Position numbers and translations under genes: made by a program
Notes under the pieces: generated by a model
Seen by the model: the letters and a program-made list of their open reading frames with translations, nothing else
The model's database searches: none
Told to the model about the DNA's origin: nothing
Shown: one piece after another, positions 130 to 14,000 of the stretch
Numbering within the stretch: the stretch's first letter is position 1
Layout: the number at the start of each line of letters is the position of its first letter
Origin: Dermatophagoides farinae
Taxonomy: Eukaryota; Arthropoda; Arachnida; Sarcoptiformes; Pyroglyphidae
Reading direction: 5' to 3'
DNA: 64,000 nucleotides
Assembly (NCBI RefSeq): GCF_024713945.1
Contig: NC_134677.1
Span: forward strand, 8,268,001 to 8,332,000

Positions 130-244
130 TTATTGAAAATAAAATTAATTTATTCAATTGTCGAAAGAATGTTGATATGTTGGATATAATAATTGATTTT
201 AATTCAATTGTTATTCAGTTGTTCAGTTATCGGTGATAAAAATT

Positions 245-3200
245 TCAAAGCCGATTCTTTGCTAATACGTTGTACTTGACTAAGCTATTTTTTAAAAAAA
301 TATGCAAAAAGATAAAATGATTATACAATTTGTCAATTATACAATCCAATATAATAATTACCCCATTAACATATTTGACACCGAAACATCGATCAGAATG
401 TTCAACCAATTTTGTTTTAAATGTAGTCACAATGAATTGTTTATGTCGTTGTTGTGGTTGTGGTGAAACCTGTGTTTGAATCATGTTTGCAATAAGTTCA
501 GTACTTTGTGGATCAAGATTTTGATCCAATTCATCAAATATGTAGAATGGTGTTGGATCAACTTGTTGTAATGCAAGAACAAAAGCCATGGAAACTAGCG
601 TTTTTTGACCACTTGAAAGCGACATTAAATCCTGTTTTGGTTCGTTCTTTTCCTCAAACGATACCAAAATTTCGATGCCAGCGAATGAATCAACACTGTC
701 GATGATTGAGGATTGATCTTGTTCAAAGAAATAAATGTAAAAAAAAGAATGAAATAAGGAGTATAAATTACCTGCTGATGATCCCAAAGAACTTGAATTG
801 AATGATGATGACAATGATGATGGTTCCGTCAATGTTTCACTTCTCATAGTAATCTCAGTTGAATTATTTGAGGTTGATGAAGTTTCGATTGTTGTTGATG
901 ACATATTTTGATCAGTATGATGACGAGTGATGAATTGTAAAAAAGCTGCACCATTTGGTACAAATCGTTTGAAAATTTCTTGAAAATAAAAATTAACCTG
1001 TTTATAGGTACGCATGATGATTTCATTCTTTTGGCCTTCAACCATTCGCATTAGATGATGGATTTTTTCTGCACTACGAATTTGATTTTCTTTTTCGCTT
1101 TTCAAATTATCAATCGTTTGACGATGTTCATGATATTCTCCCAATAGACTATGGTTGATTTTTCCACCTGGAATCAAATCATTTAATTGACGATTCAAAT
1201 TTCTTACTGCTTTATTCATTTGGCTTGTAGTGTTTAAATTACGATATTGACTATCAAGATCTCGTAAAAAATCTACAATGAACAAAAAATATTAACAAAT
1301 TATTTGCATGCAAAAGTGAGAAAACAAAATCATACCATTTGAAAACAATCCTGCTTGTTCTATATCGACCATAATATCTTGAATCTGTGAATCAATATTT
1401 TTACAGCCATCTTCTTTAGTCTGAAATGATTTTCGTAACAATTCCACTTCATACATTGCTTGTTGCCATTCCTGTTCCAAATGTTCAATTTCATTGTCAA
1501 GTTCAAATTTCATTTGTGTTTTATTCGAAAGTATCTCGTTGAATTGAGCAATTTTTCTATGAAGCGATTCAATTTGTTTAGTCCATTGTTGTTCTAATTG
1601 GTCAAATTTTTCGCATTTTTTTGCCGATGCTTGTAAATTTGATTGATAATATTCTATTTGCTCTATTTTTGTTTTCAATCTTTGTGTTGATAATTTTAAA
1701 TCTTGAATCAATTCTTCCGTTATTTTATGTTTATGTACAGTATGATGAATTTCAGATTCCAAAGTTTCAATTTGTTCATTAAGTTCTTGAATTTCTGGCT
1801 GCAAAACATTTGGATCCGATTGTATTGATTGGATTTTATGTTCCCAAAAATTTTTCTCTTCAATCAAACAAGACATTCGTGTTTCATTTGAACACAGACA
1901 TTTTCTTTCCATTTCAATTTGTTGATCAATCTGTTCGAGTTTTTTCGCCAAAACAGATTCCGATTCAATATCATCGTTTTGCCTTTCAAACCCATCTTGT
2001 AATGAAGCCAATTCTTGTTTTTTCAATGTTTCTTGACGATGAATTTCAAGATTTTCATCCATGATTCGATCACGATCAGATTCTAATTGTTGGATTTGTT
2101 CACGAATTTCTTTCAAACGTTTTTGACTGTCAGACAATTTTTGATACATTTCAAATTTGGTCAACTTATTTCGATCAATTTTCCTAATAACACCATGACG
2201 ATCAATCATTTCACCATTGAGTGTGGCAAAGTCACAATGCCGGCTCTTTTGAAACAATGTCCAACAATCATGAAATGATCGACCAATGTATAAGCAAGCG
2301 AAAATATGACGAAGAACATTTCCCATTTCAACATTGCCGGGATCTTTGTTACGGATACAATTGAAAAGTGGTTCACATAATTTATTTACACTTTGTTCAA
2401 TCGATGATTCATTTGTTGATGTTGATGGTGGTAAGCGATTAATCGCTAGAAAATGAAATGATCCAATCAAATTTAATCGTGAAATTTCATTCAATATTTC
2501 AATGGAAACATTTTCATTCGAAACAACATGTTGAAACAGATTATTCTTCAATAATGCTTCCATAGCATAATTGACCGGTTTGATTAAATCAATAAAATCT
2601 ATCACTTGGCCATGATAGCCATCAATTACGCGTTCAGCACGTTTTCGTTCTTCTTCATCAACATCTTCATTTGAATTCAATTTTGATTGAAATGATTCCA
2701 ATACTTGTTGAATGTTACGTTTTGTTGTTATTGCCATACTACAATGATCAAGTCGATTTTCCATTTCTTTAACATCGTTAGTGATTGAAATTGATTCTTT
2801 TTGTAGCTTTGTCAATTGGCTCATAATTTCGCTATATTGAATAAATAAATGAAATCAATTTTTCAACGAAAAAAAAAATAAAAATAAAAATCATCAGATA
2901 CAAACCATAACTTGATTTTATTCGATTTTTTCGCGATGATCAAATCAGCCAACTCTTGTTTCAACGGTTCTAAACGCTGTAATCGTGACGTTTTTTCTTG
3001 TGAAATTTTCTTCAATGATTTTTCAAGCATCAATTTTTCCGATTTCAAATTAGCCAATGTTTCATTTCGTAGATTAGCAATGCATTGTTGTAGTTGTTGG
3101 ATTTGTTCATCCAAAGGTTTCAAAAATCGTTGAAAAATCAATGAATTTCGTTCATTTGAAACAACTGACGATTGCATCAATCGGATCCAATTCAAATAAT

Positions 3201-4392
3201 TCATACGTTTACTTTCCAATGATTTCAATTTATCATTCAATTGTTTTTCCATATTGGACAAGTTTTGCAATTCATGAATTTTATCATTCAATTTTTCATC
3301 ATCTTGCAGCAATTCATTTTTCAATGAATCTATTTGTTCTAAATCAGTATCGGTAACAGCAACCTGTTCCAATGATTGTCGTTGTTGGCATAGATCACTC
3401 AATTCATTGTGCAATGTGTCCATTAAAAGTTTTGATGAATCAAATTTGGTTTTCAAATCACCGATCTCTAGGCGTATTTCTTCACGTTTTTGTTTTTTCT
3501 CTTCCAATCGTTCCTGAATATTTGATAGATTTTCCTGATTATGTTCCAAATTCTCAACATTTTGTTCATATTCTTGTTGACGATCTTGCCGAGTTTGCCG
3601 TAATTCTTCTAGCCCTTTTTGTTTTATTCGACTTGTTAGATATTTTTTGATTTTCGAAAGTCGTTCATATCGTTGAATGATTTCAGGATCAATATTCAAC
3701 ATGGAAAGTTTTTCTTCCATTAGCTGAATTTTCAATTCAATCTGTTTGATAAAATAATCATTTTCTTTGAGAATTTCCATTGTTTGAATTTTTGATTGAT
3801 CAAATTTCTTAGCACCACTCATTGTACGTAATATATCGAGAATTTTACTTGGATTGCTTGTGGCAACGTCTGAAACGAGACCTTGTTTCACCAGGAAATA
3901 GGAATTATCACGAGAAAAACCACCACTTTCCAGAAAGGCTATCAATTCATTGTTTTTAGTCAATTTACCATTGATAAAAAAATTATCATTTGTACGGGTG
4001 ATATGTCGTTTGATAATGACCAATTTTTCATTGATGGGAAAAAATTTATCCTCATTATCGAAATGTATTTCGACAAATGCTTCAATTATTTTAGCAGATT
4101 CATTAATCGATCGATTTTGACATATCAATAATAATCTTTGTTCTTCATTCAGACGATAATAATTGTCTGTCAATACAAATTCTAATGCCATTATTATATT
4201 CGATTTTCCTGCACCATTTGTGCCCACAATTATATTCAGACCCGGTGATAGATCATTGATTAGACAATATTTATAGGAACGAAATCCTGAAATAATAATC
4301 TATATGGATCGAAAAATCGAATTGCATCATTCACAATCATATGATAAACAAAACAATCAGAAAAATTATTTATCTACCTTTTTGATGAACAT
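245..4392 (-). CDS. SMC3-like cohesin ATPase subunit, divergent
   Basis: Five exons in consistent phase (4378-4392, 2906-4299, 1336-2831, 772-1272, 245-717) give about 1292 residues; human SMC3 has 1217. The start MFIKK followed by IIISGFRSY matches the SMC3 N-terminus, and the first coding exon is only 15 bases. Visible parts: Walker A VGTNGAGKSN near residue 30, Q-loop VKQG, coiled coil, a hinge near the middle, second coiled coil, signature LSSGQ, Walker B YIFDELDQNLD, and a C-terminal FGVKYVNG. SMC3 is the ATPase arm of the cohesin ring. Three features depart from the family: the two lysines acetylated by ESCO/Eco1 are Thr and Asn, the signature is LSSGQ instead of LSGGQ, and the hinge lacks the GALTGGYYD stretch. 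The tail after GVKYVNG has no recognised counterpart and could be intron read-through. Either a fast-evolving SMC3 or a second paralogue. Confidence 0.88.
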
Positions 4393-4631: not shown

Positions 4632-5021
4632 TCAAATTTCATCATATTTTTTTGCCAATCCATATACTTTCTTTACTGGATATTTACGATCATTTTGTTC
4701 CATTTTCATAACGACTGCATTAGCTAAATCAATATGACAATCATTGGACAGTCTGACCAGATTTTCCACTGTTTCATTGATGGCCATCGCCAATGATTTA
4801 CGATTTTCATTTGTCCATTTAGGCAGTCCAACCTGGCAATCATCATCAGTTTGTTTACGAAATTGTGATGATATATTTGAAACACTATCGACTAAATCAA
4901 GGAATGAATTACGTGGATTTTGATTGACATTTGATTTTGTTTTTCGAATAACTTGTTGACGAATATCCTCTAATGATATGGTTGAAGATTCAAATTTAAA
5001 TCCATCAAATTTATCATCCAT
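4632..5021 (-). CDS. DCTPP1/MazG-like protein, probably catalytically dead
   Basis: A single-exon frame of 129 residues. Blocks SLEDIR, NPRNSFLDLV, LVRLSNDCHIDLANAV, KMEQNDRKYP and the ending AKKYDEI line up with animal dCTP pyrophosphatase 1 (about 170 residues), which hydrolyses dCTP and modified dCTPs with Mg ions held by two acidic pairs in an all-alpha MazG fold. In the ungapped alignment made by eye, the first pair (GEVGE in human) reads DSVSN here, so both Glu are Ser46 and Asn49; in the second pair (EELSD) the Glu is Ala80 and the Asp is Glu83. The frame is intact and the fold blocks remain, so it looks like a retained pseudoenzyme, not a decaying gene. It lies 239 bases upstream of the SMC3-like start on the same strand. 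Confidence 0.75.
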   Translation of the reverse strand: MDDKFDGFKFESSTISLEDIRQQVIRKTKSNVNQNPRNSFLDLVDSVSNISSQFRKQTDDDCQVGLPKWTNENRKSLAMAINETVENLVRLSNDCHIDLANAVVMKMEQNDRKYPVKKVYGLAKKYDEI

Positions 5022-5454
5022 ATTTTTTGATTATATTTTTTTCGATCGCTACAGAAAAAAAAACTAAATTCGAAATCATTAGATCACGTGTTCAATAAAA
5101 CTCAATAATAATATTTTGATTCGTCCATCACTTCTATGTAAAAAAAAAACAAGCATGCATTCATCGTGAAACGTAAAAAATCTAAAATTTTGATTTCGAA
5201 TAAAAAAAAATTGTAAGTTTTGTATCACTGAATCTTTTAAAATTCACTTTTCGTGTTCTTTGAACCTGCATTTGATAATTGATAAAATCAAATACAGGTC
5301 AAGCAAAACACGGTAAATTAACAAAAAAAAACCGGCCTTAATCGTACTGATTTGGTAGATGATCATCAATGTTTATCAAATAATTTTGTTTTAATGGTAC
5401 AATTTTTTTTATTTTTCTTGAATTTATAGATCAAAAAAAATCAAGTTCGGAAAC

Positions 5455-9133: not shown

Positions 9134-10332
9134 TCAGTAAAAACGTTTTCTCGAAACTTCTTGTCGTTTTTGGTAGATTAACAATCCAATAACACCGGCA
9201 ATAACAAGAACAATGATGGTTAAAAATAGATAAAAGAAAAACCGTAGCCAACTCATCCGTCCGGATGCTGAATGATCATCATCAATATGATCACGTGGAT
9301 GTGCCGAACCTAAGGCGTGTGGAATGATCATAGCTCGTTGATCTAATTTATCCATCAGATGAATAGGTGTTTCTAGACGATAAGTTTTTATGGAAATGAT
9401 ATCATGATTATCACTAAGATCACCGGTTGCAGCCGTTATGCCTAGATAAAGACCAGTTGGAAGATAAACACCATTCGAAATGAAACAATCGGTCCATTCA
9501 CCACTACCATCAACATCGGTCATTACAGTCAATGTATCATTATAATATCTAATGGCAATGTATGTATCATGTTCAGCTGTACGAAGTTTAGCTTCACATC
9601 CAGCCAATTCAGTGTGTGTTCCATCACGATCATGATCATAGGCCATTGTAGCATTATTAACCATAGCCGAAATGTATGGATGTGTATGAGCGTGTGCACC
9701 ATTTTGATTGGCATAAGTATCCAAAAATATGCCTAAACCCCAGAAAAAATCAGCACTACCAAATACATTGCCTGTTACAAATAATAATGAAAGATGAGCA
9801 CATCAAAATCATGAATTCAGAGAAAATAAAAATTTACCTGGCTGCATTGGATGTTTGACATACCAAAATGCCATACCATCACCAAACAAATCTTTACCAT
9901 GGCCGGTAATTTTAAATTCCAGATGTACTTCCCAATATGGAAATGTGATTGGCTGAAAAAAAAATCCATTAGAATTTAAATTAGAATTTCGAATAGTAAT
10001 TAAAATCGATTAAAACATACGACTTTATTCCATAAACCACCATGTCTTGATTGTTGATCCGGTGTAATACGAATAAAATTACTGGACACTATTGTATGAC
10101 CAATTATATCCCAATTAGGTATTGTCATACCGGTACCTTGATATGGTCTCATAAGTGAATGTTCTTTTTGTGGATAAAAACCAAGATCTTCATATTCAGT
10201 ATGAGTTCCATGTACAGATTTTATCAATAACAAACAAATGGCACAAATCATGAAATATATGATCGACATATAGATGGTCTTTCCCATTTTGGCAATAAAA
10301 GTGTGCTTTATTTCAGAAGAAAATTGAAACAC
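9134..10332 (-). CDS. LMAN2: VIP36/LMAN2-type L-type lectin cargo receptor
   Basis: Three exons (10021-10332, 9838-9952, 9134-9771) in phase give 354 residues from the first Met. The second Met at 10287 is a better start because a signal peptide (MGKTIYMSIIYF...SVHG) follows directly. The luminal legume-lectin domain shows YQGTGMTIPNWDIIG, GDGMAFWYVK, PYISAMVNNATMAYDHDRDG, TELAGCEA and GDLSDNHDIISI. The Ca and mannose-binding Asp, Asn and His residues are visible. A single membrane segment (FFFYLFLTIIVLVIAGVIGL) and the cytosolic tail QEVSRKRFY end the protein; KRFY is the trafficking signal of VIP36. The family cycles between ER, Golgi and intermediate compartment carrying high-mannose glycoproteins. 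The luminal stretch before the membrane is His/Asp rich. Confidence 0.93.
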
Positions 10333-11036
10333 TTGGAAACACTTTTATAAAAAAAAAATTAATTTCAAATTGTTCGATGTTTAAAGGCATATATCGAACA
10401 ATTTGAATTTGATGATCGATCGATCGATCTCAGAACAACAACAAGGAAACAGTATGTACCGAAAAAAAAAATTTTTTTTAAGGAAAAAATTTCTCAATCA
10501 AACATCACCATATGATGATGATTTCAACGATACGTCAGTTTATTTTTTTTTATCAAAAAGTAAAAAAAAAATGTTGCTTCCATCCATAAACAATGTATAT
10601 ACATGAGAACATGATCACGTGATCATCCTAAATAAAAATCTTGTTGCTAGCACACAAGTTTGTATAGTAGCACTGATATTAGGTAGTAGTAGTGGCAATA
10701 GAATGCATTATGCAATTTTGCCAACATTACAAAAAACATTTGTGATTTTTGTTATTTCATTTGGCATTTGATTCGCGTTTCACACTCTGTTTGTCACGAA
10801 TTGTCAACCAAAAATTCTATTTCAATCAAAAATCCTAAAAAAAAATCGGAAATTGTCGCCATGATTTGATTGCCATCAACATTGCCATTGTGTGTTCATC
10901 TATGTTCATCTATAGATGACTTTATCATCACATCAGTGGAAACAATTTTCTTTTTAAAATTCCATATGGATCACAAATAGTTTTTTTTTTAAAAAAATTC
11001 AACTTAATCCGTTTATTTTAAGAATTCAAAAAAAAA
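10333..11036. promoter_or_regulatory. intergenic region between divergent LMAN2 and PAM
   Basis: About 700 bases between two diverging gene starts, so it probably contains both promoters. It holds A/T runs and a short GATC-repeat patch (gatcgatcgatcgatc around 10413-10430). I see no gene, RNA or clear core promoter motif. Confidence 0.4.
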
Positions 11037-14000
11037 ATGATGACAATGAATCATACATTCGAATTATTTGTATTGTTTTTCATTACATTTTTTCTTTCAT
11101 CAACTACAATGGTTAAAATGAAAATTGTACCAAAAAAATCATTATCATCAATGGCCGATTTTTATACATTGGAATTAAAAATGCCACAAGTATTACCGAA
11201 AAATGATGATGAATATTTGTGTACTGCTGTCAATATAAGTAGTGAAGAAATTTATATTAAAAAATTCGATCCAAATGCCGATTCAAATCGAATTCATCAT
11301 ATTATCATATTTGGTTGTAAAAATTTACATCGTACACAATTATATCCAAATAATTGGTAAGAATATTCTTCTTTTGTAAATGATAAATTAAATTTTTTGA
11401 ATTTTTTCAATTCTTCGATTGATAGGCATTGTTCACATGCACAACTTTGTCCAGGAATGCGTGTCATTTATGCTTGGGGACGTAATGCACCATCCTTACA
11501 GCTGCCACAAGATGTTGGTTTTCGTGTTGGTGGCGGTTTATCGTCCGATATAAATTTTCTTATACTTCAAGCACATTATGCTCATCCATTAAATGAACAT
11601 GATTCTAGTGGTGTTCGTCTATTATATACAATTCAACCACAACCATATGTTGCTGGAATATTTTTGCTAGCATCACTAAACGGGATAATACCACCGCATA
11701 AATCACAAAATCATGTAGACATTAATTGTCGTCTTAATCGTGATCCAATCACTGTATTTGCTTATCGTGTACATGCTCATGCTTTAGGCACTGTTGTATC
11801 CGGTTATCGTTATTCACATAATCGAAAAAAATGGGATCTAATCGCTAAAGGTAATCCACAATGGCCACAAGCATTCTATCCAATGGATAATGCAATGGAA
11901 ATCGATAGCCAGGATATTATTGCAGCACGTTGTACTTATAATTCTACTACACGAAATACATTGACCCTAATGGGTTCAACTGTTGGTGATGAAATGTGTA
12001 ATCTATATCTGATGTATTATTCAGAAAATACAAATCGAATGATCAACAATGGTGATGATTCAATGTCACGATCATTTTTCTATTCAGTAGATGAAAGAAA
12101 AGAAAGACGTTTAGATATGGAATCATGTGAAGATGTTGAATTTGAATCAGAATTTTATCGAAATCTTCCTGAAGGAAATGATCAACCATTACCACGTAAT
12201 ATAACTATGGAACAATCTGCATTAGACCAACATTCGGCTCATAATCATCCTCATCATCAACAGTCAAACAACATTGATTCACGTTTTGATGTGACTGAAG
12301 GAAAAAAAATTGAATTTTTTCAAGATCTTAATTGGCCTTCAAAAAATTTTCATTTCGGTCAGATTACGGCCGTTGATTTTGATTCAATGGGAAATATAAT
12401 CATTTTTCATCGTGGAAAACATGTATGGAATGAATTATCATTCGATTTGGAAAATAATTATCGTCGTATACAGAATGGACCTATTGCAAAGCCGACAATC
12501 ATAACTATTAATACAAAATCGCAGAAAATTATTGATAGTTGGGGTGAAAATCTTTTCTTCATGCCACATGGTTTAACTGTTGATCGACAAAATCATTCCA
12601 TTTGGTTAACCGATGTAGCTATGCATCAAGTATTTCGATATTCATTAGATAAATCTGATGTTAAAAATTATCGAAAAGCTATACTTGTGCTTGGTGAACG
12701 TTTTAAACCGGGCGATGATGATAAACATTTTTGTAAACCAACATCAGTAGCCATTGATTATAGTAATGGTGAATTCTATGTTGCCGATGGATATTGTAAT
12801 AGTCGTGTGATTCGTTTCAGTTCAGATGGTCGTTATCTTAATCATTGGGGACATAAACCAATTATCAATGATCTTCCATTTCGTCCATCACCAAATTCAT
12901 TGAATGTTCCGCATAAAATCTTATTGATTGATAATAATGATGTTGATGGTGGGGAGAAACTTGCCTGTATAGCCGATCGTGAAAATGGACGCATCGAATG
13001 TTTTCTTGCCCCATATGGACAATTTCGTTTTCAAATACATTTACCACAATTTAATGGACGATTATTTTCGATTGCTTATTCGAAACATGATGATATATTG
13101 TATGCAGTGAATGGACCTTCATTATGGCCACAAATGACCGATGTCAAATCTCGATCACCTGATGTTATGGCATTTGCATTCGATTTTCATACACAACAAC
13201 CATTGGCTACATTTGCACCAAAATTAACTGGAGTATGTGATGATTGTTTCGCAAAATTTGTGCAATTTGAAATTTATTTTGTTTTTTTTTCTCCAATTTC
13301 AACAGACATTCAATGAACCACATGATATTGCCGTGTCACCAACTGGTGATGAAGTGTTTGTCGTCGAAATTAGGCCAAATAATATTTGGAAATTTACCAA
13401 TTGTAAATATACCATTTTCTATGCTAATTATAATTAATTTGTGAATTTTATCTTGAATAGTTCGACCTATAGAATCAATGAAACAACAGCAACATGTCGT
13501 TGTCGATAGTGGCCGATTGAAAACACTGCAACAACAAGAAACAAGTTCAATAAAAAACGCATCATTAGACATGAATATGATGAATTTGCCGATCAAATCA
13601 AAAATAATTGAAAAAAATGACCAACAAAAAAATATTACAATTTCAAATCTAAATTTTTCATTCGAATTATTACAGATTCGAACGAAAGAATTTCGTGAAA
13701 AAGTATGGTCCAATAATGTTTTGTATTTTGTTCTGTTAGCATTGTTTATATTCATCATGATCTTAAATGTCCATCATACATCATCAACATTACGATTTTG
13801 TTCAATATTATTATCAACAACGGTAAATTTATTGAAAAGAAAACTTACTTTTCGTTCTTCATTGAAAAATAGTGAACGTATACGTTTAAGTGATGTATTA
13901 AAATCATCAACAAAAAAACGTAAATCATCATCACGTTCAGATAATAAACGATATGGTGGTTTTAATCGTTTACCACAAAATGAAGAAGAATCTGATCTAG

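Follow-up and report, generated by a model that had tools for sequence, protein, structure and literature searches.

The minus strand near the start of the window (the whole 64,000-nucleotide stretch of Dermatophagoides farinae contig NC_134677.1 analysed here) encodes an SMC3-like protein, SMC3L, which raises the question of whether this lineage runs cohesion without the ESCO acetylation switch, or whether SMC3L is an additional SMC3 paralogue with a specialised role. In passages of PMC10656103, the switch that blocks cohesin release is described as the acetylation of two lysines in SMC3. The preliminary description of the locus had both lysines replaced by Thr108 and Asn109 without gaps, and two alignments agree with it. 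The minus-strand bases 3996-3988 read CGT ACA AAT, encoding R107, T108 and N109; phmmer against human SMC3 (6wg3_B) placed T108/N109 on K105/K106 with no gap nearby, and MAFFT with the human, S. cerevisiae, S. pombe and the genome's own SMC3 gave the same placement, so that neither alignment restored a lysine at either site. SMC3L thus lacks the KKD loop with its acetylated lysine pair that marks a canonical, ESCO-regulated SMC3. The signature, also given earlier as LSSGQ, was indeed read as LSSGQK. The features are collected in Table 1.

Table 1. Features of SMC3L, numbered within the window, and of the second SMC1 elsewhere in the genome.
Feature	Position	Strand	Remarks
SMC3L gene	204-4392	minus	6 exons, 5 GT-AG introns, 1280 aa, full-length open frame
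SMC3L exon 1 (MFIKK)	4378..4392	minus	next intron after codon 5, phase 0, as in canonical SMC3
SMC3L exon 2	2906..4299	minus	ATPase head N-lobe and start of coiled coil
SMC3L exon 3	1336..2831	minus	coiled coil and hinge
SMC3L exon 4	772..1272	minus	C-terminal coiled coil, start of C-lobe, Ser/Thr-rich insert
SMC3L exon 5	362..717	minus	ATPase head C-lobe
SMC3L exon 6	204..284	minus	C-terminal tail LSQVQRISKESALKFL..., aligned with canonical SMC3 VSHIEVVTKEEAQDFV
Walker A GTNGAGKSN	4198..4224	minus	kept, single S to A change
ESCO-acetylated lysine pair replaced by T108-N109	3988..3993	minus	human K105/K106, yeast K112/K113
Q-loop YFLVKQG	3880..3900	minus	kept
Hinge interface motif GEMIDRHGVIRKI	2177..2215	minus	GX6G kept, GG of GX6GX3GG lost
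ABC signature LSSGQK	602..619	minus	one-residue departure from canonical LSGGQK
Walker B and D-loop FYIFDELDQNLD	512..547	minus	kept
SMC1L (L021)	C1:5960743-5964769	minus	8 exons, 1203 aa, open throughout

SMC3L belongs to the SMC family (Pfam SMC_N, 126.5 bits; SMC_hinge, 33.7 bits; both above cut-off) and has the layout of a split-head ATPase, with Walker A, Q-loop, signature, Walker B and a central hinge. Within the family it is of the SMC3 type, since the best 10 of 19 N-lobe matches in the PDB were SMC3, as were all six hinge matches and the best 10 of 28 C-lobe matches. In architecture, head motifs and three intron positions it agrees with canonical cohesin SMC3, from which it differs by the missing acetylatable lysine pair, the signature LSSGQ and the lost hinge GG. 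Three of its five introns match the canonical gene, which has six, in position and phase, including the intron 3' of exon 2 at the identical position 469.67, and this favours a DNA-level copy over a retrocopy. A foreign origin of SMC3L was considered and rejected, as the gene sits in a 9.17 Mb contig (C1) and has introns in common with the canonical gene.

We also weighed the reading that SMC3L is a decaying duplicate heading to become a pseudogene, which would fit its very long branch, its non-canonical signature and its retention of just 49 of the 79 N-lobe sites that are identical in four SMC3s (30 are altered). However, the protein retains Walker A, Q-loop and Walker B, and all 1280 codons are open across the five GT-AG introns, whereas neutral drift simulated from the SMC3L coding sequence, down to 38% amino acid identity and without indels, produced 62-95 stops in each of 50 runs. 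Decay or misassembly of the gene, including a misassembled exon 2, is therefore unlikely, and the pseudogene reading in particular has only a slim chance of being correct.

We then searched the genome (G000; 62.4 Mb in 22 contigs) for cohesin genes. A search for a second SMC3 with the lysine pair did find one, a canonical copy on contig C2 that has the segment GLKKDQYY and an intact hinge GDQVSHKGSLTGG. When the SMC3L head was used as a protein query, 10 places were recovered and all were scored; among them the canonical SMC3 was the best match after the window itself (39% identity). Outside three foreign-looking contigs (C15, C18 and C21), these two were the only SMC3-type places of the 10, and the remaining matches were either of SMC1, SMC2 or SMC4 type or located on those three contigs; the locus names such as SMC2 and SMC4 come from reading the sequences themselves. 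The corresponding search for regulators yielded one ESCO acetyltransferase match above the curated cut-off and one WAPL gene, in two pieces. Since a canonical SMC3 with the lysine pair, ESCO and WAPL occur in the same genome, the lineage retains the ESCO switch, and the option that it does without the switch falls. The sharper form of that option, in which the whole lineage dropped the switch and SMC3L is its only SMC3, accounts for the absence of both lysines from the window protein, but the canonical SMC3 and ESCO genes refute it unless their contigs are foreign, WAPL also speaks against it, and we give it almost no credence. Of the second option, a specialised SMC3 paralogue, the paralogue beside a normal SMC3 stands, and the specialisation is our inference. 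Judged by its sequence, SMC3L is outside the ESCO switch of its own lineage.

The two SMC3s have changed at very different rates. The N-lobe of SMC3L is 38.3% identical to that of the genome's SMC3 (85/222) and 37.8% to the human one (84/222), while the canonical copy and human share 78.5% (175/223). The corresponding values for the hinge are 27.8% (52/187), 24.7% (45/182) and 54.6% (100/183), and those for the C-lobe 40.6% (84/207), 41.6% (79/190) and 72.6% (138/190). In a tree of concatenated segments (588 columns; eight sequences, five SMC3 and three SMC1, hence few taxa and long branches), the SMC3L branch measured 1.54 and that of canonical SMC3 0.165, about a ninefold difference. With 30 of the 79 invariant N-lobe sites changed, the probability of losing both lysines at SMC3L's own rate is about 0.14, so that the loss alone is statistically unremarkable; it exceeds chance only partly and lies within the general divergence of the protein. 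What counts about it is that a functional site is affected and that an intact paralogue stands beside SMC3L.

The residues at the site can be compared with yeast alleles. Release is abolished by Smc3 K113T, K113N, K112Q K113Q, D114Q/Y, S75R, R107I/S and G110R/V/W, according to the portion of PMC10656103 concerned with such alleles. In SMC3L the residue at the yeast K113 position is N, those at K112 and G110 are both T, and R107 and D114 are unchanged; N109 is thus the K113N residue at the aligned site, and the G110 position is altered as well. Since K113N, K113T and G110R/V/W each abolish release in yeast, the T-N pair together with the T at G110, itself not a listed substitution, favours a head that would be release-resistant, or "pre-locked". 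SMC3L differs from the yeast alleles in having lost the first lysine as well and in many further changes. In addition, yeast with Asn at both Smc3 lysines is inviable, whereas K112R,K113N lives without Eco1 (as given in a section of PMC7242910), so that T-N may not act like K113N. The yeast S75 position, which is E in SMC3L, provides no evidence for pre-locking, because the canonical copy also lacks the serine and has I.

We next examined the hinge. The preliminary description had the GALTGG stretch missing, and this was confirmed: the GG is gone, and the GX6G half is still present. The full GX6GX3GG motif, described in parts of PMC12239626 as essential for dimer stability, occurs in all four canonical SMCs of the genome (SMC1, 2, 3 and 4) and in neither SMC3L nor a second SMC1, SMC1L, while both of these keep the GX6G half; one alignment puts a TG of SMC1L, behind a three-residue insertion, opposite the GG. 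SMC3L therefore lacks the canonical hinge dimer interface motif. Conserved hinge sites are retained at 33 of 100 positions in SMC3L (5 of 10 for the conserved glycines) and at 51 of 116 in SMC1L, and with retention so low in both, their common loss of the GG could be coincidence. An alignment-free structure prediction of the hinge was of poor quality, with a mean pLDDT of 48.3.

SMC1L was located through a hinge family search and again in the SMC3L-head search; an SMC_N profile search of the genome, in which 13 of 72 candidates were scored, did not include it among the scored ones. It carries Walker A GPNGSGKSN, signature LSGGEK and Walker B FFIMDEIDASLD, among PDB sequences it matches human SMC1A best (362 bits), and its N-lobe is 32% identical both to the genome's SMC1 (77/239) and to human (72/227). 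At residues 123-130 (RNKSYLYY) it has a lysine where the KKD loop lies in SMC3, which may be chance; neither human SMC1A nor the genome's SMC1 has one there in the alignment. The genome also contains two kleisin N-domains. The second kleisin, on contig C7, aligns with human RAD21, and five of its seven PDB sequence matches are RAD21, the other two being cyanovirin chains that we judged to be chance; over 152 columns, intron read-through included, it is 31% identical to the N-domain of the genome's RAD21. The Pfam model for the kleisin C-terminal domain found no match in the C7 gene, and matched on C3 only. The C7 kleisin thus appears RAD21-like, and it may be a REC8, as no REC8 chain was among the PDB matches listed. 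Each of the three core ring subunits is present at least twice in the genome.

Taken together, we propose, with a probability of about 0.57, that SMC3L is a functional second SMC3 that arose as a DNA-level duplicate, changed fast, became release-resistant and forms a ring with SMC1L and the RAD21-like kleisin, plausibly in the germline or meiosis. SMC3 would have been duplicated at the DNA level, after which the SMC3L copy changed much faster than the normal one. Not being acetylatable at the usual site, its cohesin would escape switching by ESCO. Its likeliest partner would be SMC1L, which has diverged as strongly and likewise lacks the full glycine motif in its hinge, and the second kleisin could close the SMC1L-SMC3L ring, giving an alternative cohesin beside the normal one; this pairing is suggested by the fact that the two SMC proteins diverged, and lost the motif, in parallel. 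A role in the germline or meiosis seems most plausible, on the model of vertebrate SMC1beta and RAD21L. The vertebrate meiosis-specific SMC1beta, RAD21L, REC8 and STAG3 are likewise paralogous subunits of alternative cohesins, but the paralogues named in the relevant part of PMC4230521 are of SMC1, kleisin and SA, none of SMC3, whereas here SMC3 is duplicated.

The fuller form of the proposal is a complete second cohesin core of SMC1L, SMC3L and the RAD21-like kleisin, in which the hinge glycine contact is replaced on both sides and the SMC3 is acetylation-independent and release-resistant, so that ESCO-switched and permanently locked cohesins coexist. This we put forward tentatively, as less probable than not. 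A fully separate complex is less supported, because the search gave a single STAG match (one of two candidates). Alternatively, SMC3L could be specialised and still pair with canonical SMC1, in a minor cohesin with a regulatory or repair function, with a separate role for SMC1L: the retained GX6G half could dock on SMC1, and the tree position of SMC1L suggests another age for its duplication. The glycine motif fails, however, in SMC1L and SMC3L alike, whereas all four canonical SMCs checked retain it, and the two paralogue branches are similarly long (1.41 for SMC1L in the concatenated tree), which makes pairing with canonical SMC1 unlikely, although far from negligible. If the proposed second cohesin is real, an animal SMC3 without the switch, intact next to a normal copy and joined by a second kleisin and a second SMC1 that shares its hinge change, would be a natural experiment on the purpose of acetylation and of the hinge glycines.

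As for origin, the concatenated tree joined SMC3L and the genome's SMC3 as sisters at 79%, and the tree of the N-lobe only (216 columns) left the position of SMC3L unresolved. None of the alternative placements was rejected (AU 0.06 and 0.19 for the concatenated data, 0.23 and 0.51 for the N-lobe), and the root is unsure, because the SMC1 sequences attached beside budding yeast Smc3 in both unconstrained trees. SMC1L lay outside human and the genome's own SMC1 at 98%, and its placement as sister of the latter was disfavoured (AU 0.056 and 0.045), so that the SMC1L and SMC3L duplications may differ in age.

A divergent SMC3 paralogue as such is not a new kind of gene, as there are precedents in Daphnia and Anopheles. 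Passages of Schurko et al. (2009, PMC2680839) report SMC1B and a divergent SMC3B in Daphnia pulex, and a duplicated SMC3 of Anopheles that groups with the Daphnia SMC3B outside the metazoan/fungal SMC3 clade. Like SMC3L, these copies are divergent, have long branches and accompany a normal SMC3, and Daphnia, like the genome studied here, also has a second SMC1; the likeness is one of description, those passages of PMC2680839 mentioning neither the acetylation site nor the hinge glycines. SMC3L might accordingly descend from such an ancient arthropod duplicate instead of a duplication in its own lineage, a reading that concerns its origin and not its function. The grouping of the Daphnia and Anopheles copies and the AU value of 0.19 for SMC3L outside the animal-fungal SMC3s speak for this, but the 79% sister grouping does not, nor do the 42 sites that SMC3L has in common only with the genome's own SMC3 against 31 only with human (three segments summed); we regard the ancient origin as a real but lesser possibility. 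Our literature search found no mite SMC3 paralogue at the level of titles and abstracts, and no divergent SMC3 copy in the parts of PMC6759200, PMC7339416 and PMC5023733 covered. Together with Daphnia and Anopheles, the case would allow a test of whether a separate, perhaps germline, cohesin evolved several times in arthropods or was inherited by them.

Finally, further SMC genes lie on the small contigs C15 (426 kb; L022), C18 (315 kb; L010) and C21 (250 kb; L012 and L028), which we tentatively attribute to a second, non-mite eukaryote, be it a symbiont, a parasite or a contaminant. In this set, with assignments that are themselves tentative, the SMC1-type and SMC3-type proteins lack GX6GX3GG and the SMC4-type protein has it; for the SMC2-type gene on C18, the motif was absent from open frames of at least 60 aa, and the hinge was not located. 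Within the window, a small minus-strand open frame (4632-5030) just upstream of SMC3L presumably encodes a protein resembling a dCTP pyrophosphatase of the MazG type, and the neighbouring genes at 9134-13316 appear to encode an L-type lectin, on the minus strand, and, on the plus strand, an enzyme resembling peptidylglycine monooxygenase.
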